From the NCBI RefSeq assembly GCF_000162875.1, contig NZ_GG700630.1, positions 1,008,015 to 1,072,014 of the forward strand: a stretch of DNA of 64,000 bases. The letters are read 5' to 3'. A model generated the notes under the pieces. That model saw only the letters and a program-made list of their open reading frames with translations, did no database searches and was not told where the DNA came from. Below, piece by piece: positions 14,660-60,124 of the stretch; position 1 is the first letter of the stretch; every line of letters begins with the position of its first letter. The position numbers and the translations under genes were made by a program. The DNA comes from Slackia exigua ATCC 700122 (GTDB lineage: Bacteria; Actinomycetota; Coriobacteriia; Coriobacteriales; Eggerthellaceae).

Positions 14660-14674
14660 TTATTCTTAAGATGA

Positions 14675-16259: not shown

Positions 16260-16277
16260 ACGACAGGAACGATAGAT

Positions 16278-16370: not shown

Positions 16371-16396
16371 TCCGAACGCCGCACGAAAAGCCAGAC

Positions 16397-16434: not shown

Positions 16435-16473
16435 GTTCTCTCTATAAGAAGCGACCGTCCGGAAGAAGCGGGC

Positions 16474-27611: not shown

Positions 27612-27683
27612 GGCCGCGTTGCCCAACGCTTCCTCAGCACGCCGTGCCAGCCTTCCCTTTCCATCGCCATGAAGGATGCTTCC

Positions 27684-29135: not shown

Positions 29136-29222
29136 TCATGGGGAACCGATGCGCAGGGATGCAATGCCTCGGATCCTTGCAATCGGTCCAAGCCGCCCCC
29201 CCTCACGAAAGGAGCGTTCGAA

Positions 29223-30182: not shown

Positions 30183-30222
30183 ATCCTCTGCATTCCGGCC
30201 CTCTAGAAAAGAGGCGATTCGC

Positions 30223-31473: not shown

Positions 31474-31547
31474 ATGGGACGCGGAGCAGAAGGGATGCGC
31501 TTGATCCAAGCGCAGGCGGCGCTCACGCGCCGTTCGTATGCGACTCC

Positions 31548-31582
31548 AAGGACGGTTTCGGTATCGAACCGAGACCGTCCTT
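31548..31582 (+). terminator. Strong terminator of the carbamoyltransferase operon
   Basis: A 15-bp stem (31548-31562 with 31568-31582) with one T.G wobble and a five-base loop lies 75 bp after the MFS stop and is followed by TTGTTCG. Confidence 0.75.
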
Positions 31583-31636
31583 GTTCGCTCATATCCGTTC
31601 TTGTCCGCATATGTGGAGACGTCCATGCGTGCGTAA

Positions 31637-31857
31637 GAGCCGGGCAATCTGATAAGCGGACGTGACGCCGATTTAACGGAAGCCAGCCAGGCTGCGCAGT
31701 CGTTGCTTTCTGAATACCGCAGCTACATGAATGCACACGGAAAGACACTCGTCCTGTCGCGGCGAAAACGTTTGAGAAGCATGGCGACTACTACGCGATG
31801 AGCGGCTCTACAAGCATCCGCGAAGGCGGCTATTTCGCCATCGGCGGAAAGAAATAG
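31637..31857 (+). pseudogene. Frameshifted remnant of an unidentified gene
   Basis: From 31637 a frame reads LISGRDADLTEASQAAQS...SYMNAHGKTLV and stops at TGA near 31800. After a +1 or -1 shift near 31760 another frame reads on as AAKTFEKHGDYYAMSGSTS...GGYFAIGGKK to TAG at 31855-31857. Both halves have good codon use, which suggests one broken gene with no surviving start. I do not recognise the family. The rest of 31474-32085 holds only a terminator and AT-rich promoter-like sequence. Confidence 0.35.
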
Positions 31858-32028
31858 CATTCAGCCTTTTGCCGCCGAGCGTGCAACGCTGCATGATTTA
31901 TGTTCGATGCGAAGCCGCCACGCACGCGACGAAACTATCGCCGCCGGCATGACCGGCAACGAACGAGATTGCCGAATACTCTCTTTCGCGGTTTTGTATA
32001 AACAAATCCATGAATTACTTCATTTACT

Positions 32029-32034
32029 TATAAT
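32029..32034 (+). promoter_or_regulatory. TATAAT box upstream of the fic gene
   Basis: A perfect -10 lies in a 75-bp AT-rich stretch (31990-32062) unlike the surrounding GC-rich DNA. The -35 at the right distance is weak. It is about 50 bp before the proposed start of the Fic gene. Confidence 0.4.
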
Positions 32035-32085
32035 AAATACGATTTAATATAAATTAAAAAGCACCCATGGCAATTGGAGGCTCAG

Positions 32086-33351
32086 TTGGAATACAGGGAG
32101 CTCTCGAAACTTTACCATGCAAATGCATCCACGAGCAGAGATTCCGATCTTTTGGCCGAACTGCATGTGAGGCTGCATTCCGAATCAACATTCCGAACGG
32201 GCTATATCGCAGGAAATGATGAATTGTTCCTTGCTATGCCGCGAGAAATTACCCTGCTCAGCGAAAAGATACTGCGCACAGAGCGGAAGGTCTCCTTGCG
32301 CATGCAAAACATGCCAGGAATCGCAGGAGGCGCTATTCTGCGCGGGCTCGTCCTTGACGAGATCGTATCGTCAAACGAAATCGAAGGGGTGCGCAGCACG
32401 AAGCGTGAAATAAAAGACGCGCTGAATGCGATGGGTTCGGAGGATTCGGCGCAGAAACGATTCAAAGAGCTCACAATGCTCTACATGAGCATCCTCGACC
32501 AGACGGCGAAGCTGCCGGAAGAGCCTGCGGACATTCGCGCAATATACGACCAGGTCATGAATGGAGAGCTGTCTCGCAACGACACTCCGGATGGAACGCT
32601 GTTCCGCGCTCATGGCGTTGACATCTACAACAGGGTAAAAGTCGTGCACAAAGGCCTTGAGCCTGAGAAGAAGATATACGAGGCTATGGCGGCCATGCTT
32701 GAAATCGCGCAGTCGGAAGAGATTCCTGCACTTTACGGCGCTATCGTCTCGCACTATCTGTTCGAGTACGCGCATCCGTTCTATGATGGAAACGGGCGGA
32801 CGGGAAGGTATCTCCTTGCGCTCTACCTGAGCATACCTTTATCCATGGCAACATCCCTGTCATTGTCCAGAACGATAGCCGAACATAAAGACGTCTACTA
32901 CAACGCATTCTCCATCGTTCAAGACCCTTTGAACCACGGCGAACTGACCCATTTCACGTATCAGCTGCTCGGGCTTATAAGCGACGCTCAAATCGACATA
33001 CTAAACAGACTCGAAACCGCCCAACGGTCCTATGGCCGATTGACGGAAGCACTGGACCGCATCAACAGCGACTTGAAGCTCAATGCGAAGAAATCGTCGG
33101 CGGTCTTCATGCTCATGCAATATGAAACATTCGGATTCCTAGGCGACGCACCTCTTGCCGAAATAGCCCGACATCTTGATATAGGGCAGCAGATGACTAG
33201 GAAATATTTGTCTGATTTGGAAAAAATCGGCGTTGTCTGCAGGGCACGCAGACGAAACCCCGTAACGTTCATGCTGACCGAAAGCTTCAAGCAGGAATAC
33301 GGCATCAAAGTTCCTGAGTGGCGTATTCCCGCTGACCAACACCTTGCATGA
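32086..33351 (+). CDS. Fic-family AMP-transferase
   Basis: A 421-residue Fic protein that should transfer AMP (or another nucleotide) to target hydroxyls. The catalytic motif HPFYDGNGRTGR is intact (H at ~230). An N-terminal inhibitory helix with S-NEIEG (~96-101) marks a self-inhibited Fic, and a C-terminal winged helix (~320-390) may bind DNA. I choose TTG 32086 because GGAGG ends six bases before it; the earlier TTG at 32074 contains that site. The neighbourhood has no partner antitoxin. It ends just before a strong terminator. Confidence 0.9.
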   Translation: MEYRELSKLYHANASTSRDSDLLAELHVRLHSESTFRTGYIAGNDELFLAMPREITLLSEKILRTERKVSLRMQNMPGIAGGAILRGLVLDEIVSSNEIEGVRSTKREIKDALNAMGSEDSAQKRFKELTMLYMSILDQTAKLPEEPADIRAIYDQVMNGELSRNDTPDGTLFRAHGVDIYNRVKVVHKGLEPEKKIYEAMAAMLEIAQSEEIPALYGAIVSHYLFEYAHPFYDGNGRTGRYLLALYLSIPLSMATSLSLSRTIAEHKDVYYNAFSIVQDPLNHGELTHFTYQLLGLISDAQIDILNRLETAQRSYGRLTEALDRINSDLKLNAKKSSAVFMLMQYETFGFLGDAPLAEIARHLDIGQQMTRKYLSDLEKIGVVCRARRRNPVTFMLTESFKQEYGIKVPEWRIPADQHLA

Positions 33352-33360
33352 AAGATATGG

Positions 33361-33398
33361 GAAGACGCGCCGTCGATATAGGTCGTCGGCGCGTCTTC
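33361..33398. terminator. 12-bp hairpin between fic and the CnaB adhesin
   Basis: GAAGACGCGCCG (33361-33372) pairs perfectly with CGGCGCGTCTTC (33387-33398) and is followed by TTG. It ends the fic transcript and may also act on the opposing adhesin transcript. Confidence 0.7.
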
Positions 33399-33493
33399 TT
33401 GATGCGATATGTTGAGTTCCGACCCATGTCCCTGCAGAATCCTATGAAACCGTAAGGGCTGATGGGCTCTTTCTTCAGACGCAAAGCGTCCTG

Positions 33494-36400
33494 TTACGAC
33501 ATCCTACGACGTGCAATGAGAACTACGGAGCCGGCAGCGAGCGCGGTAAGCAGAGCAGCTAGAGGAGCCGCCACACCGTCGCCTGTCTTCGGCAGAGAGC
33601 CGGACGATTCCGTCTTACCCTTGGTCGTATCGGTTGTTCCGCCGCCGGGGGCGGGGGCCTCGGGCCTCTCGTCCTTGGTGTTGGTGACGGTGAAGCCGCC
33701 CTTGGCATCGCCGGTGACCTTAGAGGAGTAGCCCTCCACGGCGTCCTCGGCCACGGTGTAGGCAATCCTCTTGCCGCCCTCGAAGGCAGGCAGGTTGTCG
33801 AAGGAGCCCTTCCAGCCGTTGCCGGCGTTGAGCTTCAATGCCTTGCCCGCGTCCTTGCCGTCGGCGAGCAGGCGGACGGTCACCTCGCCGCCCTCGCCGC
33901 CGACCCACCTCTTCGCGACGGGGACGTCGACGGTCTCGGGCTCATGGGCGTTGGTCAGCGTGTAGCCCGTTACCGCGTCGCCGGCCACCGAGGCCTCGTA
34001 GCCCTTGGGGACCGAAACCTCCTTGACCTCGTAGACCACGTCCTTGCCGGCCTCCTTCATGAACAGGCCGGTCCAGGTGTGGGTCCAGCCGTTGGCCTCG
34101 GAGAGCTCGACGGGGTCGCCCAGGGGCCTGCCGTCCGCGTAGAGCTGGGCCTTCACGCTCGCGGGGCGTATCCCGTCCTGGTTGTTCGCGTCGGCCCACG
34201 CCTTGGTCACGGTGACCGAGGTCTTGCCGGGCGTGCAGGAGTTGGTTATATCCGTGCCGTCGACGGCGGTCGCGTAGTTCGGGACCGCCTCCTCGGTCAC
34301 GGTGTAGGCGTACTCGTGGCCGTCGGCGGGATCGTACTTGGGAAGGCCCGTGAAGGCATAGGCCCACGCGCCCGAGGCGTCGGGCGTCACGGTCCTGGAG
34401 TCGGCCTTCGCGCCGTCGCGCATGAGGTTCACCGTGATCGAGGCGGGGCGCACGCCGTCGCGGTCGCTATCGTCTTCCCAGGACTTGGTCCCGGAGACGT
34501 CCACGGTCTCCTTGTTCGTGTTGGTGACGGTGAAGCCGGAGGTCGCGTCGCCCTCGACGGAGCCGTCGTAGTTCGGCACCGGGTATTCCTTGACGGTGTA
34601 GGCGATCTCGCGGCCGTGGTCGTACTTGGGCAAGCCCGAGAACGCGCCCGACCAGTTGCTATCGGCGTCGAGCTTGAGCTCCTTGCCCGTGTCTTTGCCG
34701 TCGGCGAGCAGGCGCACGGTCACCTCGGAGCCCGCGGGCCCGACCCATTTCTTCACGACGGGGACGTCGACGGTCGCGGGCGTATGCGTGTTCGTGACCG
34801 TGTAGCCCGCCGTCGCGTCGCCGGCCACGGCGACGTCGTAGCCGCTCGGCACGCCGGCCTCCTTGACGGTGTAGGCGATGTCCTTGCCGGCCTCCTTCAG
34901 GTTCAGGCCGGTCCAGGTGTGGGTCCAGCCGTTGGCGGCGTTCAGGGTGACCGGGGCGCCGAGCTCATGGCCGTTCGCGTAGAGCTGCACGTCGATCGAG
35001 GTGGGACGGACGCCGTCCCGGTCGCCGTCGTCGGCCCACGCCTTGGTGACGGTGACCGAGGTCTTGCCCGGCGTGTAGGAGTTGACGATGTCGGTTCCGT
35101 TCACGGAGGTCGCATACCCAGGGACCGCCTCCTCGGTCACGGTGTAGGCGTACTCGTGGCCGTCCGCGGCGTACTTGGGAAGGCCGGTGAACGAGTAGGC
35201 CCACGCGCCGGAGGCGTCGGGCGTCACCGTCCTGGAGTCGGCCTTCGCGCCGTCGCGCATCAGGTTCACCGTGATCGAGGCGGGGCGGACCCCGTCGCGG
35301 TCGCTATCGTCGTCCCAGGACTTCGTGCCGGAGACGTCCACGGTCTCCTTGTTCGTGTTGGTGATGGTGAAGCCGCTCGCCGCGTCGCCCTCGACGGCGG
35401 TGCCGTACTTGGAGCCGTCGACGCCCGACACCTCGGCCTCGGTCACCGTGTAGGCGATCTCGGAGCCGTCGGCGCCGTACTTGGGAAGGCCGTCGAAGGA
35501 GCCCTTCCAGCCGTTGCCCTCGTCGAGCTTGAGCGATTTGCCGGTATCGGCGCCGTCGGCGAGCAGCCTGACCGTGACCTCGGAGCCCTTGGGCCCGACC
35601 CAGTTCTTCTCGACCGGGACCTTCACGGTCTCGGTGTTCGTGTTGGTGATGGTGAAGCCGGAGGCCGCGTCGCCCGTAACGTCGCCGTCGTAGTTCGGCA
35701 CCGGGTATTCCTTCACGGTGTAGGCGATCTCGCGGCCGTGGTCGTGCTTGGGCAGGCCCGAGAACGCGCCCGACCAGTTGTTATCGGCGTCGAGCTTGAG
35801 CTCCTTGCCGGTGTCTTTGCCGTCGGCGAGCAGACGCACGGTCACCTCGGAGCCCACGGGCCCGACCCATTTCTTCACGACGGGGACGTCGACGGTCGCG
35901 GGCGTATGCGTGTTCGTGACCGTGTAGCCCGCCGTCGCGTCGCCGGCCACGGCTGAGATATACCCGAGCGGAACTGGATCTTCCTCTACCGTATAGGCGA
36001 TATCGTTGCCCGATGCATCCTTCTGGTCAAGACCCGTGAAGGAACCCTTCCACGAACCGGCCGAATCGAGCGTCACTATCTTGCTAGTGGGCGCACCGTC
36101 AGCGAACAGCCTGATCTTGACCGAGGAGGGGCGGATCCCGTCTTGATCGCCGTTATCGTTCCATGTCTTCTCGACCGCAACGTCGACTGTGGACGGAGCG
36201 ACCTTGTCGACGAACGTCTTCGTCACGCTTTTGGTCGTGAGAGGAAAGTCGGTGTCGATGACCGCTTGGTCGTCAGCCGCAAGATACCCCGATGGCGGAG
36301 TGGTCTCTTTAATGACGTAGCTATCGCGCAGAAGGCCTGACAGGCTCGCCTCGCCGGAAGCGTTCGTGGTCACCTGGCCGACAACCATGCCGGTGCGGGT

Positions 36401-44093: not shown

Positions 44094-45356
44094 TCAGTCT
44101 CCCAAAGACGCCAAGAGCCTCTCGCAGTTGTTCCGCAGCGGCTTCTCCAGACGCTCTCGGAGCTCTGCCATGCCGGGCACGCCTGCCTCCTCGTTGAACA
44201 CCGACCCTTCCGTGTCGAGGACGCGTTGCGCCACCTCGCCGGCGAGCCTGCAGCACCCTTCTGCCGGAAGCGAGACGCTTTCCGCGAACTTCACCAGGTG
44301 GCTCCTGTGCAGGCGGCCAATGCGGTTCTCCCCTCCGATGCTCATGGCGCTGCGCCACGGGTTCCCGAGCCGGGGAATATAGGGGAGCGCAGAGGCGACG
44401 TCGTACATGGGGGCGAGCACGGTCTCATCGTTCGCAAGGTGCAGGACCGAGTAATTCTTGGCGTGGGCATCGGTAGCCCCGACCACGTAGTTGAACAGTA
44501 GCATCTCCACGAAGAGCGCGACGTTGGACTCCGCGTTGCCTGCGCGCCTGAGCAGCGCGACGCAGTCGCGGGCGATGGGGCCGCCGTCCGAGCTGTACTT
44601 CCTGTCGGGCGGGACGGAGAGCGCCTGGCAGAAATCCTCCTGATGGATCCGGTCGACCTCGCCGTCCCCTCCCTGCGCCCTGTCGAAGCGCTCGACGACG
44701 ATCGCCCCCTTCCCTCCGAACTCCCGGTACTCGACTTGCGCGGCCGGGATGCCGCACGCGCGGGCGAGCCTCAGGCAGAGGTACTCGTCGAGCGCCTCAA
44801 GGACCATGCCCGCGATGCCTGGTTTGACGATGTGTGTGGTGGCGGCGGAGCCGGTGCAGCGGAACCATTCGCCGGACTGCTTGCGAAGGGCGACCTTTCC
44901 CTGGTTGCCGCCGAGCGACCAGCTCTCGTCGGGCGCGGTCCATTGGGGGGAGGGCGATTCAGCCTCGGCGATCCTGTCGCGTATCTCCCCGTCCGAGATG
45001 GGCTTCAACTCGCCTTTCCGGGAGAGCGCGTCCTCCAGGGTGTCGTCGTTGCAGACCTGCACGGCGCCCGGGCAGTCGAGGCCGACCTCCTCGAGCAGTC
45101 CGAAGGTGTCATCTGGCGATATACCGGCCTCGCGGCCGATTCTGCGGCGCACCTCCCTGTCGTCGGGCAGTAGGCCCAGGAGCCACGGGCGGATCGTTGC
45201 ATCGCCGTATTCCCTTGAGCCCTTCGGCATTGAAAGCGATACCGAAGGGCCCGCGTAGCGCGAGGAGTATCGGAAGGACAGCTTGCCCTGCGAATCGCGT
45301 CGGATCTCGCCGGCGATGTCCCCTCCCACGAGCAGGTGCAGCGTTCTCTCCCTCAT
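44094..45356 (-). CDS. hipA: HipA-family Ser/Thr kinase toxin
   Basis: A 420-residue HipA-type kinase. The N-terminal subdomain (LHLLVGGDIAGEI) is followed by SWSLGGNQGKVAL, where the P-loop-like serine is the usual autophosphorylation site. The catalytic aspartate is in ATDAHAKNYS (~308) and the metal-binding aspartate in PMYDVAS (~330). E. coli HipA phosphorylates glutamyl-tRNA synthetase and causes persistence; the target here is unknown. It overlaps hipB by four bases in one operon under two perfect dyads. Confidence 0.93.
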   Translation of the reverse strand: MRERTLHLLVGGDIAGEIRRDSQGKLSFRYSSRYAGPSVSLSMPKGSREYGDATIRPWLLGLLPDDREVRRRIGREAGISPDDTFGLLEEVGLDCPGAVQVCNDDTLEDALSRKGELKPISDGEIRDRIAEAESPSPQWTAPDESWSLGGNQGKVALRKQSGEWFRCTGSAATTHIVKPGIAGMVLEALDEYLCLRLARACGIPAAQVEYREFGGKGAIVVERFDRAQGGDGEVDRIHQEDFCQALSVPPDRKYSSDGGPIARDCVALLRRAGNAESNVALFVEMLLFNYVVGATDAHAKNYSVLHLANDETVLAPMYDVASALPYIPRLGNPWRSAMSIGGENRIGRLHRSHLVKFAESVSLPAEGCCRLAGEVAQRVLDTEGSVFNEEAGVPGMAELRERLEKPLRNNCERLLASLGD

Positions 45357-45664
45357 CGGCTGCCGCCTCCCAAGATTTCCAGCGCGGCGCTCCCTGCCAA
45401 GAGGGCCTTCTCCGAGAGCCTCTCCTCGGCGGGCGGAAGGGGCCTAGATGGCAGGTCTTCTCCCAGGCACATGGATATCCCGAGTGCGGAGCATATGGCG
45501 AGCACGCGCCCGAACCCGACATTGGCTGCCGAACCGTCCTCCACGGCTGCGATGAGCCTGCGCGAGACTCCTGCCTCCGCTGCGAGTTGACTCTGCGTGA
45601 GACCGAGCTCGGCCCGCGCGTTCCTCACGATGGAGCCCAGCTGCTCTGTCGTCGTCACCTTCAC
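45353..45664 (-). CDS. hipB: HipB-like XRE antitoxin
   Basis: A 103-residue XRE helix-turn-helix protein (LGSIVRNARAELGLTQSQLA ... VSRRLIAAVEDG) that should neutralise HipA and repress the operon. I start at GTG 45664 after AGGGGAAGGG. The frame stays open to an ATG at 45730, but that start would lie inside the operator. The C-terminal ~30 residues (LPPAEERLSEKALLAGSAAL) may contact HipA. Confidence 0.88.
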   Translation of the reverse strand: MKVTTTEQLGSIVRNARAELGLTQSQLAAEAGVSRRLIAAVEDGSAANVGFGRVLAICSALGISMCLGEDLPSRPLPPAEERLSEKALLAGSAALEILGGGSR

Positions 45665-45686
45665 GGACCCTTCCCCTCTCGTTAAA

Positions 45687-45727
45687 TGCAATATATTGCA
45701 CAGTTTAACAAAATGCAATATATTGCA
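45687..45727. promoter_or_regulatory. Two perfect TGCAATATATTGCA operators of hipBA
   Basis: Perfect 14-bp palindromes lie at 45687-45700 and 45714-45727, 27 bp centre to centre, just before hipB. Flanks (AAA before, CA after) are also shared. Spacing and position fit cooperative HipB autorepression. Confidence 0.85.
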
Positions 45728-45730
45728 CAA

Positions 45731-47523: not shown

Positions 47524-47620
47524 GGTCCGGATTGTAGCACAGGCCCTCCTGGTCGCCCGCAAGGCGTGCGTGCTGCGGGGTAAACTATGTCGGTCGGAAA
47601 ATTCCCCCACAAATGAAAAA

Positions 47621-47646
47621 CCCTGACCTGTTTGCACAGGTCAGGG
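47621..47646 (-). terminator. tRNA-type terminator left of attL
   Basis: CCCTGACCTG (47621-47630) pairs with CAGGTCAGGG (47637-47646); on the minus strand TTTTTCATTT follows. It resembles the hairpin downstream of the tRNA at 57402-57423, so it probably derives from the original tRNA locus. Confidence 0.65.
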
Positions 47647-47652
47647 CTGTAA

Positions 47653-47700
47653 TTTTGGTCGCGGGGGCTGGATTTGAACCAACGACCTCCGGGTTATGAG
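47653..47700 (-). repeat. attL: 48-bp duplicate of tRNA-fMet 3' part
   Basis: Bases 47653-47700 are identical to 57433-57480, which cover the anticodon-to-CCA half of the tRNA-Met gene. Identity ends exactly at the anticodon position (then TTTGTG versus CCCGGC). The integrase gene begins 350 bp inside. It is one end of the integrated element. Confidence 0.9.
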
Positions 47701-48050
47701 TTTGTGTCCTTGCTGTCGGGATGCTCCGCTTCTCCCGTTGAAAAAACTAAATTCCCTGCTAAACCGTTATTTTTGTATCAGCTCGCAATTCTCGTGTTTC
47801 CTCTTGCTCTCTAGCATTCCCCCCGGATTCCCCCCGATTTCAGAAAATCGAGGTCTCCTATTCCCCCGCGCAGTGTTTGTGTGATACGCTCGGAAACGGC
47901 CGTTCCGGTGACTGCTTCCACAAACACTCCGGGATGGTGCCGCGGCGAGCTGCTTCCAACATCACCCCAGCTTTCCCGCGGAAACGGTAGGGTGGTCCGG
48001 CAACTTCCACATGGCCGGCGCCGGACCGAAGGATGCAAAGGAGAATAGCT

Positions 48051-49409
48051 ATGAAGATCACCGGTTCCGGCGAGATCGAAGAGGTCGTCAAGGGCAAGAT
48101 CTACCGGATACGCCACCACCTCGGCAGGGACCCCAAGACGGGCAGATACATCAGGTCGCCGAAGAAGACCGTCTACGGCACCAAGGCCGACGCGCGCCGT
48201 GAGCTCGAGACCTACAGGCACGAGCTGGAAAGCGAAGTCGGAAACTTCGAGGAGTACACGGTGGGCGCTTACGCCCGTCTCTGGCACGAACGCAGGGTGG
48301 ACTCGGGCGGCTACTCCCCGCTCACCCTCAAGGACGACGATTTGCAGGTGCGCAAGATCGAGGCTCTTTGGGGCGGCACGCTGCTCGAGAACCTGACCGC
48401 GAAGAAGATCTCCGCCGCATACGACCGGCTGCTCGCCAACAGGGAGGCGTCGCGCAACGCCATCCACAAGATCAACGGCACGCTCTCGCTCGTGATGGAC
48501 CACGCGGTCGCCAACGAGCTCGTCGAGGCGAACCCGTGCAACCTCGTGAAGGCTCCGAGGCCCAAGCCCAAGGAGCGCAAGGCGCTCTCGGACGAACAGG
48601 CGCTCGAACTCGCGATGGCGCTGCGCACAGAGAAGCAGACCGGCAACACCGTGGCCGTCTGGATAGCGCTCGCCACGGGCATGCGCCGCGGCGAGATCAT
48701 CGGCCTCGTGTGGCGCAACGTCGACTTCGACCGCAGGCGCGTCTACGTGGGCCAGCAGTACGCCGCCGACCACACCATCCGCGATCCCAAGAGCGAGAAG
48801 TCCCACCGTTGGCTCGGCATCGACAACGGCACGGTGACGTTCCTCGCCGAGTGGAAGGCGAGGCAGGCGCGCGACATGGAGGTGCAGGGGCTTGACCAGT
48901 CGGGCGAGACCCCGGTCTGCACGAACTCAGTCTTCCAGTTCATGGATCCCAACACGTTCAACCGCTGGCGCCGTCAGTACTTCGCTGAGCACGGTCTCGG
49001 CGAGTTCGGCCCTTCAGTCCAGTACACGGACTCTCAGGGCCGCAAGCGCTGGCGCAAGGGGGCGTACGTCGGCTACAACCTGCACGAGCTCAGGCACACT
49101 CAGGCGACGCTGCTCATCGGCTCGGGTGCCGACATCAAAACGGCCCAACAGCGTTTGGGGCACTCGTCTGCGAGCCTGACCATGGACATCTACGCGCACT
49201 TCATCGCCCAAAACGACCGCATCGCCGCGAACACGATCGGGGGCATCCTCGGGGAGGCTGCGGGGAAACCCGATCAGCCTCAGAGGCCGACGCTCGACGA
49301 TGCGGACAGGGCGGCAATCGCGCAGCGGATGGCCGACGGCTCGTCGCTTAAAGCCGCCATCTCGGCTGTGCGCCCGGACGTGAGCGTGCTCGACTTGCTG
49401 GGCCTGTAG
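48051..49409 (+). CDS. int: Tyrosine-type site-specific integrase
   Basis: A 452-residue tyrosine recombinase with an arm-binding N-terminus (1-~65), a SAM-like core-binding domain (~70-165) and a catalytic domain. Catalytic residues: R212 (TGMRRGE), H345 and R348 (LHELRHTQ), H371 (LGHSS) and nucleophile Y381 (MDIYAHF). All are intact, so it may still be active. ATG 48051 follows AAAGGAG; an ATG six codons upstream includes that site. It adjoins attL and should use the tRNA-fMet 3' end as target. The C-terminal ~55 residues are an extension of unknown role. Confidence 0.95.
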   Translation: MKITGSGEIEEVVKGKIYRIRHHLGRDPKTGRYIRSPKKTVYGTKADARRELETYRHELESEVGNFEEYTVGAYARLWHERRVDSGGYSPLTLKDDDLQVRKIEALWGGTLLENLTAKKISAAYDRLLANREASRNAIHKINGTLSLVMDHAVANELVEANPCNLVKAPRPKPKERKALSDEQALELAMALRTEKQTGNTVAVWIALATGMRRGEIIGLVWRNVDFDRRRVYVGQQYAADHTIRDPKSEKSHRWLGIDNGTVTFLAEWKARQARDMEVQGLDQSGETPVCTNSVFQFMDPNTFNRWRRQYFAEHGLGEFGPSVQYTDSQGRKRWRKGAYVGYNLHELRHTQATLLIGSGADIKTAQQRLGHSSASLTMDIYAHFIAQNDRIAANTIGGILGEAAGKPDQPQRPTLDDADRAAIAQRMADGSSLKAAISAVRPDVSVLDLLGL

Positions 49410-49477
49410 AACCGCAAATTCGTGCAATACCTGGGATAGGAGTATCAATTCTTTAATGAGAATATTAAAACTGCGCC

Positions 49478-49633
49478 ATGAAACACTTCGATGAGATATA
49501 CGGGATCTCCGCTGACAACTTCGGTCTGGTGACCGCTGCCCAAGCGAGGTCCGCCGGGTACCTGCCGGCCATCCATTGCCGAAGCTCGCTGCTGCCAAGC
49601 CGGACATCCTGGAACTTGCACCAGGGAAGATAA
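49478..49633 (+). pseudogene. Truncated AbiEi-like N-terminal HTH
   Basis: A 51-codon frame reads MKHFDEIYGISADNFGLVTA and AAQARSAGYLP before losing similarity and stopping at 49633. The start resembles the winged-helix lead of AbiEi-type antitoxin/regulator proteins. No following domain or AbiEii toxin is present. It lies between the integrase and a hairpin. Confidence 0.45.
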
Positions 49634-49691
49634 AGTCGCACAGAAATCGAACTCCGTTCAACAGGTTCCAATCACTTCAAGCCTACTGAAC

Positions 49692-49734
49692 GACGGCGCG
49701 CCTGCGCTTTGTAAGCGCGCCGTCACGTTCCTAC
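49692..49734. terminator. GC-rich hairpin between integrase side and YobI-like gene
   Basis: GACGGCGCGC (49692-49701) pairs perfectly with GCGCGCCGTC (49725-49734), extended by GAACG/CGTTC-like flanks. No T tract. It sits at the 3' end of the convergent YobI-like gene. Confidence 0.5.
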
Positions 49735-49755
49735 CAGAGCAAGAACGATAATGCA

Positions 49756-52700
49756 TCAGCCGCGCTTCCTGCCAGGATGCCCAGTGTAGCCTTTGGGATA
49801 CACGATCATCTTGCCGGAGTTGCTGAGCTTCTGCTTTCTCATCGTGCATAGCCCGAATCTCTCGAGCGAATCCACCATTGTGCGATCAGCCTGCGTGTCG
49901 GGTATCTGCACCTGAGAGCCTTCGAGCAGCTTGACGTACTCGTCCTGGCCAGCTGATGAGAAGCACTTCCCGAGATCTCGACGGACCGCCCGTTTCTCCG
50001 TAAGCGTGCTCATTTCCAGCTGCCATGATATCAAGGCGAGAGCCGCTTCCCGGCCATGTTCGACGGCGACCGCCTTCGTCATGTCTGCAACCATAGTCCA
50101 GGGAATATTCACCCTCGCAGACATCATCTCTCTATATGACGAGGAGGCACGTGCCAGTACCGCATGGCGCAAGTCCGGCTCGCCCGACTCGAATAAGCCG
50201 GGCAGGGCAGAGAGGTCATCTGGTGAGAAATTCGTCCCACGAATGATGGCCGCCAACAAGCTCGGAGGGTAACCGTCAACGAGCTTCACCGGCGAGCTGA
50301 ACCCGCCGAGCAGCCGCACCTTCGAGGATTCGGGGAAGCCGGGCGATTCGAAGATCTCAAGCGCTTCGGCCTCTTTGAAAGGCAGGGCGGCGCCCCCTTC
50401 GTCGCCGATGACCAGATCAACGTACGCGTCGGCGTCGGAGGAGGCGAGCCGCACTGCCAACGTCCCATGTTCCTCTCTGATGAACTGGAGGTTGGGGGCT
50501 GTGAGGGGAATGGCTCCGATCGTTATCAGAGCGCCGACTTTGTCGACCCCTATATCCGTAATGTTGAAATCCGGATAAACCGCCCCGTATCCGTTGGCGA
50601 TCTTCTCGAACGGGGCAGCTGCCATATCGCTTTTCATCAGGTCTTCCAAGAAGTCGCCCTCCGCGCCGAGCACCTCCTTGCTCTTGCGCAAGCCGAGGTC
50701 CGCAGGTGGATCGTTCCGCTCGAGGAAGCCGACCAGCACTTCGCTCACCTCGGACCCGCACGCGATGTAGTATCCGAATATGTTGTCGGAACTTGCGACC
50801 ACCCGGTCGTGGGCGAACAGCGCCGAGCGCTTGTCGACCGAAACGACGAGGGAAGCGTCGGAAACGGGCCTTCCCGACAGGCGGGCGGCGAAGGACGACG
50901 CGGACTCGTTCGACAGCCCGTCGGCGTTCATGACCCAGCAGACGGCCTCCTCGCTAGCGTCGATCTCCCCATCGAAACCCGCGACGAGCGAGGAGATGAA
51001 ACACTCCATGCCGTCGCGCACGAACTCCTTGAAGGGCTCAGGGTCCGGTACGGCACCCGAGCTGTTGACGCTGTCGACAAGGCGGTCAAAACCAGTCGCT
51101 TCGTCGCTGGCCCCGAAATGCCCGAGGAAACCCGCGACGAGGGCGGCGTTGGGAACAAACAGCCTCCTGGCATAGACCTCTTCTACGAGGTTGGCGTCCG
51201 AACCGTCGAATACAATCTCCTCGGCCGAGTAGCCTATCGCCTCGAGCCCATCCGCAACTTGACCGGCTCGGCTCTTCCCTGCAGTTAGGAATTCCGGATC
51301 GGATTCGGCTGCCAATTTGATGAGCGCCACCACCCTTGGGTCGTCGCGCAGGCTTCCGCCTTCAGCTAGGAGCCTGTGCATCATGATCCGCTTGGCATAC
51401 GCATCGGCGGGATCGCGTGATTCCAGCATGGCTTCGATCGTCCTCATCGCCCCTTCACGCATGGCGGGAAACGCCTTGGGGGTGCACTGGTCCGAGGCCA
51501 TGTACCCTAAGAGGAACTCGGTGTCGCAGTCCATCTCAACGCCCGAGAGGAATGCGGCGGTCTGAGACGGCTCCCCCGTCTCGATCAGGACCTTGAGGAG
51601 GGAGCGGTTTCGGGCACACTTCCTCGGCAGGCAGGCCTCGTCCATGCACAGCACGACGGCTTTCGGCGCCCCGAGGATGTAATCGGGATCGACGTCGGAC
51701 CGCCCCCCCCCGAGAACGGCCGTCACGAAATTCCTATCTTCCCGCGTGAGGCTCGTGGGGTAGAAGTTGCTCGTATACCGCTCGTAGGATTCGTCGATGC
51801 CCCCCGTGCTGATCAGGAAGGGAATCAGCCCGAAATACGGGCTCCGCTTGACATCATCGAAATCGAGCTCACCGTAGTCTGCAGGCCGGGGAAGGTCCTC
51901 GGGTTCCAGGAGGTAGCACTCCTCTTTCGCGAACAGCTCCCTCAGAGGAGCTCGGCGGAGCTCGGCCCGACGCTTGTCCAAGACTCGGATGCTCGACTCG
52001 ATCCGCCTGCGCTCGCCCTCTCTTCTCGCCTTGACGTCATCAAGACGTCTGAGAAAATCCGGATTGCCGTCCAGAGCCGCCCTAATGTCGTCGAACTTCT
52101 CCTTCTTCTCTTGGTCGCCGTCGATTGCCGCCATCAGGTCGTCCGGATTCTCGAACCGAGTGATCTGAGGTGAGTAATAACCGCTTATTACGAACATCTC
52201 GGCGATTTGCGTAGTCTGGTACAAGAGAACCAATTCCCGCTCGCTCCGCGCAACCTCATCCTCGGATCTCTCAAGCGCGTCCTCGAGCTCGCTTCTCTGC
52301 TCCTCGATTGAACGAAGCTCGTCGGCGATAAGCCTCTCGCGGCCGCTGAGGAGGGCGTGCATGTAGCCGCGTCCGACCTGGAGGCGCTCGAAGTCTTTCG
52401 GGAACGTCTCCTTGAACGCGATCGCGGATACCAGATGCTTCGCGTCGCGAGAATCCAGGGACCCTCCCTGGCTGCGTTGGAGGACCCGCTTGTAATGGTA
52501 TGTCCCGTCGACGATGGCGTTGAGGATGCGCGGGTCGTCGACGAAAACCGAGAGTCCCCGCAAGAACCTGTCATCGGGCTCTACCCCCACGCCCTTCAAC
52601 CCCGATTTGAGCAGATCGTAGGCGTTGCTAGTGTCTGCGTAGGGAATCACTGGGATGATGAAGTCGAAGAACTTGGCGCGGTCGTGCGAATCTCGGAAGA

Positions 52701-53544
52701 GCCCGTCATGAACCAGGTAGACGAATCTCAGCACTTTCGCGCCCGGGCGCCTGGATGCGTTTGCGAGCGAATTGATAGAGTGCAGCTTCTCGAAAATGCC
52801 GACCTGGCCGAATCGGTCCAAGTCCTCGAACACGACCACGTCGCTGCCCGACCCGTTGAGCAGGTAAAGGAGGTCGTCCATCGACCTGTCGAAAGCGGAG
52901 GCGCCCTTGTCGTCGGCAACCTCCAGCTCGGCGCTGAAGAGCTTCAGCTTTTTCAGCGTCCTGGAAAGAAAGCTCGTCCTTATCAGCCACGTCATGCCCG
53001 CAACCGCCTCCGCGACCCACAGGCCGCAAGCAATGCCAAAAGCAGCCCGTCCGGTCGGCAAGACGAAAGGGCCGGGGTATGCGGGTCTGCTCAAGCCCCA
53101 TCCAAGGTAGATGCTCAAAAGCGCGAACGCGAGCAGGGCGGTTGCGAGGAGGACGTCCTTCACGGGGCTTCCGTCCCTGGTGCGCTTGAACCTGCTTTTG
53201 GGGGTGAGCTTGGGGTCCGTCTTGTGTATGAGCTGATTCAGGATCTCGACCTCGAGGTCCTGTTCGCCCCCATGCCCCGTCTCGTCCTTGAAATGGGCAA
53301 GCTGAACGTGGAGGAAGCTGTGATCGGCGCCATGCTGCCTCTCCCACGATTCCATGACCGTGTTCTTTCCCGCCCCGTAGGGCCCAGAAATCGCTATGTT
53401 CTTGATGTCGTCGTTACCGAACGCGAACGAAAACTCCTGGTCATATGCTATAAGCTCGTCCGCTTCGAGCTTCGCGGGCGACAGGGACAGGAGCGTGATG
53501 CGGTCTTCGGACTCGTCTCTCGTGATATCGATTTCGTCGGTCAT
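49756..53544 (-). CDS. YobI-like membrane P-loop NTPase, large
   Basis: A 1262-residue protein. Residues ~30-460 form a YobI/KAP-like P-loop NTPase with two inserted membrane helices (~131-150, ~167-188), and VVVFEDLDRF (236-245) as Walker B. Walker A is GPYGAGKNT (54-62): asparagine replaces the usual Ser/Thr after the lysine. A coiled coil follows (~480-530). The C-terminal ~650 residues have no recognised domain and look helical. Membrane P-loop proteins of this kind often sit in mobile elements and are suspected defence proteins, which is inference here. ATG 53544 follows GGAGG by nine bases. It is the largest cargo gene of the element. Confidence 0.8.
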   Translation of the reverse strand: MTDEIDITRDESEDRITLLSLSPAKLEADELIAYDQEFSFAFGNDDIKNIAISGPYGAGKNTVMESWERQHGADHSFLHVQLAHFKDETGHGGEQDLEVEILNQLIHKTDPKLTPKSRFKRTRDGSPVKDVLLATALLAFALLSIYLGWGLSRPAYPGPFVLPTGRAAFGIACGLWVAEAVAGMTWLIRTSFLSRTLKKLKLFSAELEVADDKGASAFDRSMDDLLYLLNGSGSDVVVFEDLDRFGQVGIFEKLHSINSLANASRRPGAKVLRFVYLVHDGLFRDSHDRAKFFDFIIPVIPYADTSNAYDLLKSGLKGVGVEPDDRFLRGLSVFVDDPRILNAIVDGTYHYKRVLQRSQGGSLDSRDAKHLVSAIAFKETFPKDFERLQVGRGYMHALLSGRERLIADELRSIEEQRSELEDALERSEDEVARSERELVLLYQTTQIAEMFVISGYYSPQITRFENPDDLMAAIDGDQEKKEKFDDIRAALDGNPDFLRRLDDVKARREGERRRIESSIRVLDKRRAELRRAPLRELFAKEECYLLEPEDLPRPADYGELDFDDVKRSPYFGLIPFLISTGGIDESYERYTSNFYPTSLTREDRNFVTAVLGGGRSDVDPDYILGAPKAVVLCMDEACLPRKCARNRSLLKVLIETGEPSQTAAFLSGVEMDCDTEFLLGYMASDQCTPKAFPAMREGAMRTIEAMLESRDPADAYAKRIMMHRLLAEGGSLRDDPRVVALIKLAAESDPEFLTAGKSRAGQVADGLEAIGYSAEEIVFDGSDANLVEEVYARRLFVPNAALVAGFLGHFGASDEATGFDRLVDSVNSSGAVPDPEPFKEFVRDGMECFISSLVAGFDGEIDASEEAVCWVMNADGLSNESASSFAARLSGRPVSDASLVVSVDKRSALFAHDRVVASSDNIFGYYIACGSEVSEVLVGFLERNDPPADLGLRKSKEVLGAEGDFLEDLMKSDMAAAPFEKIANGYGAVYPDFNITDIGVDKVGALITIGAIPLTAPNLQFIREEHGTLAVRLASSDADAYVDLVIGDEGGAALPFKEAEALEIFESPGFPESSKVRLLGGFSSPVKLVDGYPPSLLAAIIRGTNFSPDDLSALPGLFESGEPDLRHAVLARASSSYREMMSARVNIPWTMVADMTKAVAVEHGREAALALISWQLEMSTLTEKRAVRRDLGKCFSSAGQDEYVKLLEGSQVQIPDTQADRTMVDSLERFGLCTMRKQKLSNSGKMIVYPKGYTGHPGRKRG

Positions 53545-53964
53545 GCTGCGGCGCCTCCAATACACACCTTTTCCATATTGTACTCGATGGGACGGATGCA
53601 GCTCGTGTTCTGCCGCATCCTCAGTGGAACGACGCTTCTGCACGGGGTCGGTATTTTCCCACACCGGAGAGACGGCTCTATGCGTCTTCGAGACCCCGAC
53701 GCTACCGGCCCCTCGACGGGATATTCCCAAAGCTGGGCCCTCTCAGCTCTTCGCAGATGCGACGGGCCCCTCTTTCGCTGCGTTTCGCCACTGTCGCTCA
53801 GATCTGCTGCCCCATCTCCGGTCAAGGCCTCGGGGCTCTGGCCAGCTCGACCAGATCTTCAGCTCAGATGGCCCATTCCCTGGAGGGGAGAATCTGGCTT
53901 CGGACAAACGCGTGAATGGCGGCCTCGCTCGAATGCCAATCCAAGAGCGGTCCTCGGCGTACCG
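53545..53964. other. Non-coding stretch upstream of YobI-like gene
   Basis: No gene is supported. It should contain the promoter of the YobI-like gene (TTGTACTCGAT-type sequence near 53577 on either strand is weak). Frames crossing it are chance. Confidence 0.4.
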
Positions 53965-54309
53965 CTACTTGCGCCCCTCCGGCAGGCCGAGCAGCGTGGT
54001 GCGCACGCGCAGGTTCTCGCGCGCCGTGAGGTTGGGGTAGAGGGGCGGCTGCTCCACGAGCGAGCCGATGCGGTAGAGGTCATCGCGGCGCCAGGGCCTT
54101 CCCCCGAAGAGCATCTCGCCCTCCGTAGGTCGCAGCATGCCCGTGATCATCTTGAGGGTGGTGGACTTGCCCGCCCCGTTGGGGCCGAGCAGCCCATAGA
54201 CCTTCCCCTCCTCGACGTGCAGGGACACGCGGTCCACCGCCGTCTGCGCCCTCGCGCCCCACCCGAAGCGCTTGGTCAGCGCGCGCGTCTCAAGAAAGCA
54301 TCCCGACAT
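53965..54309 (-). pseudogene. Truncated ABC transporter ATPase
   Basis: A 114-codon remnant starting MSGCFLETRALTKRFGWGAR, with intact Walker A GPNGAGKST (~41-49) and the Q-loop region SLVEQPPLYPNLTARENL. It stops at GLPEGRK before the LSGGQ signature and Walker B. The start resembles bacteriocin-immunity (lantibiotic-type) ATPases. No permease genes remain nearby, so it is a dead fragment. Confidence 0.75.
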
Positions 54310-54631
54310 TGCAGTTCCTTTCGTTTCCGGTTCCTCGTTTTCGGATACCAGTCTGGAGGGCTTTCCTAAAGAAACGCTAAAGGCTCTTGGGAAAACCGTC
54401 CTGCTTCCCATGCGCCCCATCGCGTCCGCCCGAGTGTCTCGCCGCGCAAACCTTCGCCGCGAACCGCACGACGCGCAAGGCGCGGAAAACTTTTCGGCAA
54501 TCCAACAGTCATGCAACCGAAAACTCCCGCCCTCCGGGTTTCCGCTTTCCTCCTTGCGCGTCTTGCGAACCCCGACGAACCCCGCGCCAACGGGCCCGCA
54601 AGGGGCGGGCCGAAACGATTAGGAGGTCATC
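54310..54631. other. Divergent intergenic region in the element
   Basis: No gene is seen. AGGAGG precedes the plus-strand ORF at 54632 and GAAAGGAAC the minus-strand ABC remnant. Confidence 0.35.
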
Positions 54632-54937
54632 ATGAGAAACAGAGCCGTCATTACCACGCCTCAGCGTAAGCTCGGGGTCTACCTGCACTGGAACGGCGGG
54701 AGGGACACGGTGGAGCCGCTTCTGCGCTACTGCGAGCTCAAGGGCTACCGCGACCCTGCGACGGACGACTACGGCTGGGCGAGGATGTGCCAGGTCGTGG
54801 GAAACTTCTTCGGCGGCACGAACTCGCTCGGCATCATGCCGTACACGACGGACGAGCGCATGGGTGCAGGCGAGCGTGCGGGCGGAGAGCTTGCCCACGA
54901 CCTTCTCGGTGTACTCGCCGATGTCTTTGTGCACTGA
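54632..54937 (+). pseudogene. Truncated conserved mobile-element protein
   Basis: A 101-codon frame with an excellent AGGAGG site. The first ~70 residues (RAVITTPQRKLGVYLHWNGG ... DDYGWARMCQVVGNFFGGT) resemble a conserved protein of Coriobacteriia integrative elements with no known function. After SLGI the reading looks unrelated and reflects a fusion with foreign sequence. The 3' part of the gene is missing. Confidence 0.6.
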
Positions 54938-54960
54938 TACGCTTAGCATCCGCGGCCTCC

Positions 54961-55176
54961 TTACGCCGGGAGCCAGGATGTGTCGAGCATCCCGAAGTAC
55001 ACGGCCGCCGCCACGATGATCGCGCCACCGGCGATGGTGGAGATGGCGCTGGCTATCTGAGCGCCGCCCTGCTGCTCGCGGATCGCGAGGCCGAGCGAGA
55101 CGGCGCCCCATACGATGAGGAAGCCGCCGAGGAACGTTACGCACCCCGATACGAGGCTGATGATGTTGGAAAGCAT
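54961..55176 (-). CDS. Small two-helix membrane protein, conjugation pilin-like
   Basis: A 71-residue protein with two hydrophobic helices (SGCVTFLGGFLIVWGAVSLG and STIAGGAIIVAAAVYFGM) joined by a polar EQQGGAQ turn. Size, layout and place after a VirD4-type gene resemble the Maff2/VirB2-like small proteins of integrative conjugative elements. ATG 55176 has AAGGAG about 11 bases upstream. Function as a pilin or channel component is inferred. Confidence 0.6.
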   Translation of the reverse strand: MLSNIISLVSGCVTFLGGFLIVWGAVSLGLAIREQQGGAQIASAISTIAGGAIIVAAAVYFGMLDTSWLPA

Positions 55177-55350
55177 TTTTCGCTTGTCTCCTTTGCATCT
55201 TCGGGCGGAATAGGTGTGGAAGGACCGCCCTTGCTGGTAGAATCTTGTCCGGAGCCCCTTCGGGGCGCTCCTTTGCATCTGGGACGGCAGCCCCCGGGAG
55301 GGTGGAAGCTCCCGTCGGCCTAGGCGCCTTGCGTGGCCGTCCCGTTCATC

Positions 55351-56997
55351 TCATTTCCCCTTGGTCGTTCCCGGCTCGTACGGCTCGCATACCGCGCCCT
55401 CGTGGCCGGGGTGCACCTCCTTCCACTTCGGATGCCTCTCGATGTCGTACTTGGCGTCGCGCAGCGGGTCGGTGCCTGCGATGAGCACGATCGCCTCGTC
55501 CCGGGGCATCTTGCCTACTTCCGCTGCCTGGATGAGGTCGCGCTCGACCACGTTCCAGTTGCGCGTCGAGGAGCTCATGGTCCCGCGGCTTTCGTTGAAC
55601 GTGAGCACCGAGACGGTCTCCTTGCCGACCATCTCGGATATCTCCCGGTTGGTCTCGTTGGATTTCCCGCCGAGGAACAGCGTGGTGTCGCAGCAGTCGA
55701 CGATGGTCTGAGCGGTCTCGTCGCTGTAGTTCGCCTTCAGCTGCGCGATCGACTGCAGCACGACCGATATGGACATGTTGCGGCTGCGCACGACCGCGGC
55801 CATCGACTCTATGTCGGGTATCTTGCCGATGTTGGCGAACTCGTCGAAGAGGAACGTGACGGGCGTTGGCAGGCTGCCCCCGTGCTCGGCGAGGGCCTTG
55901 TCGCACAGGATGTTCATCGTCTGCCACATCATGATCGCGAGCAGGAACGAGTAGGTCTTTCGCGCGTCGGACATGATCGCGAAGACGGCGATCCGCCTCC
56001 CCGCATCCCCCATGCGGTCGAGCTCCATCTCGTCGCTGGAGAGGATCTCCCTGACCTGCGGGATCGCGGCGGGCTCGAAGCGCGTGTTGCAGCTGATGAG
56101 TATGGACTTCAGGGTCTTGCCCGCTGCGTCCTTGAACATCTTGTAGTGGAGCAGGCTGAAGTCCTTGTCCACGTCGACGGGCTCGCCGACCTTGACCCAG
56201 CTCCAGCCGGACTGCGCGCCGCCGTAGACCCCCTTGCCGCCGTAGTCGTAGGATTCCGGGGCATCGCCGGTCCGCACGTATTTCCTGCCCGTCCTCACCC
56301 TCTCGAAGAGCAGGTCGAGCGGGCTCATGTAGTCCTCGTCGCCCTCTTTTGCCTTCGCCAGGGAGAGCAGGGTCACCAGCCCGGAGAAAGACCTGTCCTC
56401 CTCGGGGCAGTGGTATACGAGGTAGCCGATGAGCGCGACGTAGAGCAGTCGCTCCGCCTTCTCCCAGAACGGGTCGCCTGTATGCTCCTTGTCGCCGGTC
56501 GTGTTGCCTATGAAGCACTCGGCGAACTCGAGGATGTCGGTCTCGTCGTGCAGGTAGGCGAAGGGGTTGTAGTGGGCTGAATGGGAAAAGTCTATGGTGT
56601 CGAAGACCTTCACGTCGTAGCCGTTGTGCTCGAGCATCCATCCGAGGTTGACGACCGTCGTCCCCTTTGGGTCGGTGACGAAGTAGCTCGCGTTCATCTG
56701 CATGATGTTGGGCTCTATGTAGCCGCGCGTCTTCCCCGCGCCCGAGCCGCCTATGACGAGCACGTTGCGGTTCCGGTCGTACTTGCGCGAATGGCGAGCG
56801 CGCGACATCTCCATGCCGTAATGCTTCGTGAGGATGATGTTGTTGGAGGCGCTGCGGGGGTCCATGAACTTCCGTCCCTTTCGCCTGGTTCCCCATCTGG
56901 CGCTACCGTGCTCCTCTCCCGAGCGGAAGTTGCCCTCGCGGATGAGGCTGTACGCCCACGCGATCCACACAGCGCAGGCTGCGGGGAATGGCGGCAA
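55351..56997 (-). CDS. VirD4/TraG-type coupling protein, N-terminal anchor missing
   Basis: A type IV secretion coupling ATPase of up to 548 residues that would feed DNA-protein complexes to a conjugation channel. Walker A is GGSGAGKT (~83-90), Walker B LFDEFANIG, and the segment SGEEHGSARWG begins the conserved soluble part. Full VirD4 proteins start with two membrane helices; here the frame opens only ~25 residues before that point with a TTG at 56997, and upstream DNA shows no membrane helices. It is probably 5' truncated by the element's right end. No relaxase gene accompanies it. Confidence 0.85.
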   Translation of the reverse strand: MPPFPAACAVWIAWAYSLIREGNFRSGEEHGSARWGTRRKGRKFMDPRSASNNIILTKHYGMEMSRARHSRKYDRNRNVLVIGGSGAGKTRGYIEPNIMQMNASYFVTDPKGTTVVNLGWMLEHNGYDVKVFDTIDFSHSAHYNPFAYLHDETDILEFAECFIGNTTGDKEHTGDPFWEKAERLLYVALIGYLVYHCPEEDRSFSGLVTLLSLAKAKEGDEDYMSPLDLLFERVRTGRKYVRTGDAPESYDYGGKGVYGGAQSGWSWVKVGEPVDVDKDFSLLHYKMFKDAAGKTLKSILISCNTRFEPAAIPQVREILSSDEMELDRMGDAGRRIAVFAIMSDARKTYSFLLAIMMWQTMNILCDKALAEHGGSLPTPVTFLFDEFANIGKIPDIESMAAVVRSRNMSISVVLQSIAQLKANYSDETAQTIVDCCDTTLFLGGKSNETNREISEMVGKETVSVLTFNESRGTMSSSTRNWNVVERDLIQAAEVGKMPRDEAIVLIAGTDPLRDAKYDIERHPKWKEVHPGHEGAVCEPYEPGTTKGK

Positions 56998-57188
56998 GTC
57001 GCGGAAAACGCGGATAGTCCGCTAGGGTTCGCTACGTCCATTAGCCATCCAATCCACATATTCGGGGACGGCGAACGGGCTGGTTCGCAGGCATTCCCAG
57101 CCGCCATCAGAGAGGGCTCACGCGTGGGGGAATCAGCCTGTTTTCGCGTTTTCGAGGACGGTTTGACGCGACGCGGGTTGGTTTTCCG

Positions 57189-57265
57189 ATTCCCCCCGCT
57201 GGTGCCGCGAAGCACCGTTATTCCCCCATGACCTCGAGAACATTCCCCCCCCCCCGAATTCCCCC
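57189..57265. repeat. ATTCCCCC motif cluster at right end
   Basis: Four same-orientation copies at 57189, 57220, 57242 and 57258, one running into an 11-C tract. They match the left-end cluster and are candidate integrase or excisionase arm sites. Confidence 0.55.
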
Positions 57266-57401
57266 GCGAGGCTATCCACGGAGAGAACAAAAGGGGCCTG
57301 GAAACCGTCGCGAAACGGCCTCCAGACCCCTCTTCGAACACCCTTGAAAAGGGCTGCGGGGTAAACTTTTTCGGCTGAAATATCCCCCCCAGAAATAAAA
57401 A

Positions 57402-57423
57402 TGACCTGCATTTCTGCAGGTCA
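57402..57423 (-). terminator. Terminator downstream of tRNA-fMet
   Basis: TGACCTGC (57402-57409) pairs with GCAGGTCA (57416-57423); on the minus strand TTTTTATTTC follows. It lies 13 bp after the tRNA CCA. Confidence 0.75.
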
Positions 57424-57432
57424 AAGGCTTGT

Positions 57433-57480
57433 TTTTGGTCGCGGGGGCTGGATTTGAACCAACGACCTCCGGGTTATGAG
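57433..57480 (-). repeat. attR: tRNA-fMet half identical to attL
   Basis: The 48-bp right copy of the attachment repeat, lying within the intact tRNA gene. The integrated element therefore lies on the 3' side of the tRNA. Confidence 0.9.
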
Positions 57481-57512
57481 CCCGGCGAGCTACCAGACTG
57501 CTCCACCCCGCA
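57436..57512 (-). tRNA. Initiator tRNA-fMet (CAT)
   Basis: A 77-nt tRNA read on the minus strand, with anticodon CAT in CTCATAA, encoded CCA at 57436-57438 and T-loop GGTTCAAATCC. Three consecutive G:C pairs flank the anticodon loop (GGG/CCC), the initiator signature. Position 1 is T opposite G at 72, a weak pair in place of a strong one, also in line with an initiator. Confidence 0.93.
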
Positions 57513-58531: not shown

Positions 58532-60124
58532 TTACGCACCGCCTCGCGCCCGAACCTCGTTCACGAGCGTAATGGCCTCTTGCTTGCTGTGCACTTCGAG
58601 CTTCTGATACACATGCTTGGTATGCATCTTAACGGTATTGCGCGAGAGCACCAGCCCTTCTGCGATCTGCCCCAGCGTCTTGTCCTGCGCAAGATAGCGA
58701 AGCACGTCGAGCTCGCGCGGCGTCAACCCATGCTCTTCCGCAAGGATTCGGCAAGGTTCCCGGTAGAACGCGTCTTCCATGGCTTCGAGCGATGCCCGAT
58801 TCGCATCTTCGGTGCCCGAAGAATTCGAAGGGACTGGCTCGCGTTCGGCGACGCCGCCCGACACAAGGCCGGCTGAATCCTCCTCGGCCTTGTCATTGCG
58901 CCTAACTACATCAGGCAGCGGCGCCATGTTCATGAAATGGTTCGGATCCCTGAAGAAGAACATCGCCGCCATCACATACACGAAGACCAGCAGCAGAGAA
59001 GCCGCCTGCATACTGATTCCAAAGGAAGCCAGCATCGTCGCCCCGGCCGCAAGCGCCGCACCCAAGCTGTGCCCGAGCGTCGCAAGCAGCCTCGCTCCCG
59101 CCGCCGCACCCGCCATCCAGCGGCTCAACCGCACGCAGCGCACGGCAAGAAGCCAGGTCGTCGCCTCGAAAAACCCCATGCCGACCGCTTCGAGAGCCAC
59201 GTCGGATCCCGGTACCGCAGCGCTGATCAGGGGCGCAAGCAAAACGCCTGCGGAGACGAACGCAACCCCCGACCTGAGCATCTCCTGAATGCCCCACGCA
59301 TCGCGACGAACGACCAACGCGGCCACGACGGCGAGCATAACGGAGGAAAACGCCACGTTGCACGATGCCCCCTCCACCGCTCCGCCACGGAAGAACCCAA
59401 GCATCAAGGAGGAAATGAGCATGGTGACCACGAGCCGGCCCGAAAACGCCTCGCGCAGCCTGCCCGACCCCGCACGCGGCCGATCGGCCTTATCGCTTTC
59501 TTCCTTCGCAACCGTCCTTAAGATGAACGCGCCGATCAGGATTCCGGCCAGCACGAACGCGCACGAAACCGCCATCTGGCCCGATACGGAAAGCCCGCAA
59601 GAGGCGGACACGGCCGTGATCGCGGTATCGAGCACGTATGCTCCTGCAATTCCCGCAATGGACGCACCCGCCAAGGCGTCGCCGTCGACCTCGACGAAAA
59701 GACCTGCGTACGCTGCAGAGGAAGGAACCGCCTGGAGCTTCGCCAAAACGAGACCCAGAACAAGCAGGAATCCGGCAAGACCGTGCGAAGCAAGGCCCGC
59801 GCGTAAGAAACCGAGAAGCATCGCGCCGAGAACGGACGCCGCAAGACATCCGGCACCGGAAAGAAGCAGGATGCGAAGCCCCCTGTCGCGCGCTGCGGCA
59901 TCCGAAGGCGCCACGCCTCGCGCACGCCGACGATGAACGAGCGCGACGATTCCGAAGAACGCGGCATAGTCGAAGATGGTGACGATACGCGCGATCGCAG
60001 GGGCATTCGGAAGAGAGAGAACGCATGCAAGCGACGAATCCATGATCCAGATGCCCGCGAACAGGCATGCCAGTCCCGTGGCCGCCATCGCTGCGATACC
60101 CCGCGCGCGACTCGTCCCCTTCAT
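58532..60124 (-). CDS. 12-TM LuxR-family regulator
   Basis: A 530-residue regulator with about 12 membrane helices (~8-390), a polar linker and a LuxR helix-turn-helix (~460-525: HGLTPRELDVLRYLAQDKTL ... NTVKMHTKHVYQKLEV). It is divergent from the Tat flavoprotein gene at 60324, its probable target, across a 199-bp gap holding the perfect palindrome ACCCATATATGGGT. The ligand is unknown; in related bacteria such pairs respond to the substrate of the flavoenzyme. Confidence 0.9.
   Translation of the reverse strand: MKGTSRARGIAAMAATGLACLFAGIWIMDSSLACVLSLPNAPAIARIVTIFDYAAFFGIVALVHRRRARGVAPSDAAARDRGLRILLLSGAGCLAASVLGAMLLGFLRAGLASHGLAGFLLVLGLVLAKLQAVPSSAAYAGLFVEVDGDALAGASIAGIAGAYVLDTAITAVSASCGLSVSGQMAVSCAFVLAGILIGAFILRTVAKEESDKADRPRAGSGRLREAFSGRLVVTMLISSLMLGFFRGGAVEGASCNVAFSSVMLAVVAALVVRRDAWGIQEMLRSGVAFVSAGVLLAPLISAAVPGSDVALEAVGMGFFEATTWLLAVRCVRLSRWMAGAAAGARLLATLGHSLGAALAAGATMLASFGISMQAASLLLVFVYVMAAMFFFRDPNHFMNMAPLPDVVRRNDKAEEDSAGLVSGGVAEREPVPSNSSGTEDANRASLEAMEDAFYREPCRILAEEHGLTPRELDVLRYLAQDKTLGQIAEGLVLSRNTVKMHTKHVYQKLEVHSKQEAITLVNEVRARGGA

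Follow-up and report, generated by a model that had tools for sequence, protein, structure and literature searches.

Tmn, an anti-phage protein classed among the KAP-family NTPases, works against several phages in E. coli, and its mechanism has been called unexplored (PMC11846954); the first report is that of Gao et al. (2020), as cited in PMC11846954. In Enterobacteriaceae, Tmn (TmnA, PADLOC PDLC02220) is a single large gene of ~1270 aa whose product has a YobI-type NTPase with membrane helices inside the NTPase domain, and it is carried on mobile DNA. All of these features recur in a gene of the window analysed here, a stretch of 64,000 nucleotides from Slackia exigua ATCC 700122. This gene (49756..53544, minus strand) encodes a Tmn/YobI-type membrane NTPase of 1262 aa, as judged from the open reading frame, the HMM matches and a structural model. 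The frame opens with an ATG at 53544 and runs uninterrupted through 1262 codons, an in-frame TTG at 53730 being a less probable start. The gene is best read as a divergent coriobacterial homologue of Tmn, and thus, as far as its sequence tells, as ancestrally a phage-defence ATPase.

Family membership and architecture of the window protein

The Pfam model PF20693 (YobI-ATPase, cut-off 27 bits) matches the window protein with 279 bits (E 1e-82) over positions 1-362 of 363, which bears out the earlier note in calling it a YobI-type membrane NTPase; of the other profiles that the note had thought worth searching, the Pfam KAP model gave no match at E 1. The PADLOC Tmn model matches residues 14-617 (E 9e-53), and from this match the protein appears a sound defence candidate, as had been supposed. 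The same model gives the Tmn of a Salmonella plasmid 2230 bits and also scores relatives in Fusobacterium, Sutcliffiella, Sinorhizobium and other Coriobacteriia. The window protein differs from the enterobacterial one in these points: overall identity to the experimentally studied Tmn is ~20%, so that the activity of the window protein could have drifted, the PADLOC model covers just the part mentioned, and Walker A ends in GKN where Tmn has GKS. Likewise, while the YobI-ATPase model is matched almost completely, the Ser/Thr that it has after the Walker A lysine is replaced by Asn.

In the predicted architecture, an AAA+/STAND-like NTPase is joined by a helical linker to an alpha-solenoid, after which comes a C-terminal winged-helix-like domain. 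Walker A is GPYGAGKN (residues 54-61; 53362..53385, minus strand), Walker B (VVVFEDLDRF, about residues 236-245) is intact, and the catalytic residues K60, E240, D241, R289 and K291 are retained. The hydropathy maximum lies at residues 127-152, and the AlphaFold2 (AF2) model has helices at 127-151 and 166-194, the second of just moderate hydrophobicity. Both fall after Walker A and ahead of Walker B (236-241), so that the predicted membrane segments split the P-loop domain, as the earlier note had stated.

The ~650 C-terminal residues that the note had left unassigned indeed show no domain in a Pfam search of the last 863 residues, yet this region is a homologue of the Tmn C-terminus: the C-terminal profiles of the window protein and of enterobacterial Tmn align over 735 columns with probability 99 and E 5.6e-18 (hhalign), which makes the window protein a full-length Tmn homologue. 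The two halves were modelled with AF2 at mean pLDDT 79 and 84. The C-terminal half, for which the note had suggested a structure prediction, is an all-helical alpha-solenoid closed by a winged-helix-like unit (helix-helix-strand-helix-strand-strand); its likeness to HEAT/ARM solenoids (VIA-align, Z under 8) is a generic arrangement alone, and no function is therefore read from it. The N-terminal half resembles the NTPase fold of TnsC, ORC/Cdc6, NB-ARC resistosomes and RdrA of RADAR (Z 11-13.6). None of these STAND/AAA+ proteins has a credible PDB sequence match to the window protein, and their structures are not known to contain a membrane insertion of the kind predicted here. PDB sequence searches gave chance matches only with the single protein and with the C-terminal profile, and weak P-loop matches with the full profile; Foldseek retrieved nothing at E <= 0.001 for either half.

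The Walker A substitution and the coriobacterial clade

The Asn after the Walker A lysine, reported in the earlier note, is Asn61, encoded by AAC, a codon one G-to-A transition away from AGC (Ser). Relatives were gathered blind to Walker A, by means of patterns drawn from the surroundings of Walker B and of a DRTKFFD motif, together with genome searches. Among the 106 non-redundant relatives, residue 61 is Ser in 102 and Thr in three, with a gap in the last, that is, Ser/Thr in 105/105; two apparent additional cases of Asn proved to be misaligned C-terminal fragments. The three nearest relatives read GPFGAGKS, GSYGAGKS and GAPGSGKS. By this comparison of sequences Asn61 is private to the window copy, a local substitution, and the suggestion of an altered Walker A beyond a local mutation is not upheld; GKS/T in all relatives was the outcome that the note itself had named as pointing to a local mutation.

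It is improbable that the AAC codon stems from an error of sequencing or assembly or is a single-strain polymorphism: a single transition, AGC to AAC, would suffice and Asn61 is known from one copy, but the assembly is in two contigs and 98.8% complete, and the gene is otherwise without signs of poor quality. As to its effect, Asn in place of Ser/Thr after the Walker A lysine disturbs Mg2+ binding by general P-loop chemistry, and in Ras the S17N change at the equivalent position disturbs Mg-nucleotide binding. By this analogy the substitution probably impairs Mg-ATP handling, and impairment of the window copy is likelier than improvement; Asn61 thus lowers any claim of normal activity and leaves the homology to Tmn unaffected.

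The closest relatives come from Parafannyhessea umbonata (L032/L013), Paraeggerthella hongkongensis (L033/L011) and an uncultured Eggerthellaceae (L061). Together with them (L013, L011, L061) the window protein forms one clade with support 1.0; they share 40-43% identity with it in the NTPase region and the same architecture, but have GKS in Walker A, and the copy of P. hongkongensis, unlike the window frame, is broken into two frames. The window protein departs from the family consensus at 12/66 conserved positions and two of its clade mates at 12-16, while in L061 (2063-5533) Walker B itself is altered, reading DDIDTF instead of EDLDRF. These relaxed motifs suggest that the branch may rely less on standard catalysis, and they are, with the intact frame and the retained catalytic residues, what speaks for an active defence protein of the Tmn type that either tolerates Asn61 or has its nucleotide handling tuned by it (for example slow hydrolysis, or a binding switch without turnover). 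We regard such an active protein as rather unlikely, given that Asn is absent from all relatives and that the Ras-type substitution acts as described. Still more doubtful is the specific proposal that Asn61 is functional, the protein being a coriobacterial Tmn variant that serves as a nucleotide-dependent switch and lacks normal Mg-ATP hydrolysis, on a branch whose NTPase motifs are relaxed in general.

Distribution of relatives and the island in tRNA-Met

The gene was found in 1/12 genomes of the genus and in 10/396 of the class sample; a scan of genome contigs with the single window protein as query returned nothing, and an alignment-based scan recovered the relatives. A relative is present in 639 plasmid records and in none of the phage records. 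Among the genes near relatives are integrases, recombinases, Fic, Gabija-like and Septu-like genes, each in few loci. A search for an obligatory partner gene next to the relatives found none, the commonest neighbour families occurring in just 3-5 of the 109 neighbours. On a Sinorhizobium plasmid (L030, 11875-14070), the relative has in its vicinity a UvrD-helicase together with an AAA ATPase, and Gabija is composed of proteins of these two kinds. Mobile and defence neighbours and a patchy spread fit a mobile gene that defends by itself, and not a housekeeping gene. Homologues, found among such neighbours and on hundreds of plasmids, are not confined to housekeeping loci; such confinement would have spoken against the earlier note. 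It is very improbable that the protein serves the element as a host or conjugation factor instead of in defence: the gene does lie near a VirD4-like gene (see below), but the mobile and defence genes next to its relatives vary and include no common transfer-gene partner, and a member of the family acts against phages (PMC11846954).

The window gene is the main cargo of an integrase-borne island of ~9.8 kb in tRNA-Met (47653-57480). The earlier view of it as the chief intact gene carried by a mobile element holds, and that element now has defined ends. The island is flanked by exact 48-bp direct repeats of the tRNA-Met 3' end, one at the integrase-proximal end (47653..47700, minus strand) and the other (57433..57480, minus strand) within the intact tRNA-Met (CAT) that served as integration target (57436..57512, minus strand), and a tyrosine integrase of 458 aa (48033..49409, plus strand) adjoins one repeat; the features that mark a tRNA-Met integrative element, namely direct repeats of the tRNA 3' end and an integrase beside one of them, are thus present. 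Beyond the cargo gene, all on the minus strand, follow a truncated remnant of an ABC-transporter ATPase (53965..54516), a frame with a PrgI-like start (54509..54961; weak match, E 0.19) that runs on into unrelated sequence, a small membrane-protein frame of 105 aa adjoining the transfer genes (54961..55278) and a VirD4-like coupling protein of the CD1115 family (55351..56997, 548 aa). Of the transfer genes around the cargo, which had been described as broken, the PrgI-like frame is a remnant; the VirD4-like protein matches its family model nearly at full length (1-440 of 442).

These remnants raise the prospect, to which we give slightly less than an even chance, that the gene is degenerating along with its island, Asn61 being the first lesion in an element already shedding parts. 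Relatives in other Coriobacteriia are often broken too (two frames in G175, 652 aa in G136, fragments in G224 and G044), whereas here the 1262 codons are uninterrupted and the integrase and VirD4 frames are open as well.

Among loci with a related integrase, 10/19 have the same tRNA-Met att sequence within 1.5 kb. Three other Coriobacteriia have Tmn relatives or remnants next to tRNA-Met (CAT) (L183, 8847-13473; L184, 7640-7716, with L011, 10490-12946; L016, 9155-12246): in G175 the position is immediately outside a tRNA-Met island, in G687 it is 1.3 kb from tRNA-Met, and in G044 a remnant stands at a distance of 2.6 kb. The Tmn-type gene seems to have integrated repeatedly at tRNA-Met in this class. 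On one side of each att copy ~80 bp are similar, with gaps (47572-47652 and 57353-57432), as if the island had brought the flank of an earlier tRNA-Met site. In the empty-site comparison within the genus, most of the congeners examined have tRNA-Met with a single copy of its 3' end, and the flanking genes do not correspond.

Other features of the window were also observed. Just outside the island, a HipA-type kinase (44094-45356, minus strand) is preceded by a small helix-turn-helix-like frame (45353-45730, minus strand), and the two (44094-45730) are a probable HipBA-type toxin-antitoxin pair. Near tRNA-Met, the frame 58532-60124 (minus strand) looks by eye like a LuxR-type regulator with many membrane helices. 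At 14001-17000 and 25001-34000 the G+C content (0.50-0.60) is clearly lower than in the remaining window, and these stretches are possibly other acquired DNA.

Proposed mechanism and significance

The earlier note had taken the gene for the most likely undescribed system of the window. This has to be abandoned, since the protein falls into the family of Tmn, whose action against phages is known (PMC11846954). It is no new system but an ordinary member, possibly a weakened one, of a defence family already known. The explanation that we prefer, with a probability of about 0.8, is that of a divergent coriobacterial Tmn homologue, carried as cargo by a tRNA-Met island, which would defend by the mechanism proposed below and of which the Asn61 copy is likely impaired. 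By analogy with STAND-type NTPases, the cytoplasmic alpha-solenoid and winged-helix-like C-terminus would sense a product of phage infection, upon which the AAA+/STAND-like NTPase would be free to exchange nucleotide and to assemble. The membrane helices would then pass the effect to the inner membrane, so that phage growth would be stopped. The change of Ser/Thr to Asn after the Walker A lysine would remove the hydroxyl that normally binds Mg2+. The balance tilts towards the window copy being weakened or inactive, through a local loss and not an adaptation; what counts against this explanation is, besides the low identity to the studied Tmn, that the frame has stayed intact over 1262 codons, as would suit a protein that the cell still uses.

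Under the preferred reading, Tmn-type defence would extend to the Coriobacteriia and to tRNA-Met islands, and the family would gain a natural Walker A variant for comparison with its GKS relatives. As the mechanism of Tmn is still unexplored, the Ser-to-Asn variant and the conserved solenoid and winged-helix-like C-terminus may be useful handles on it.
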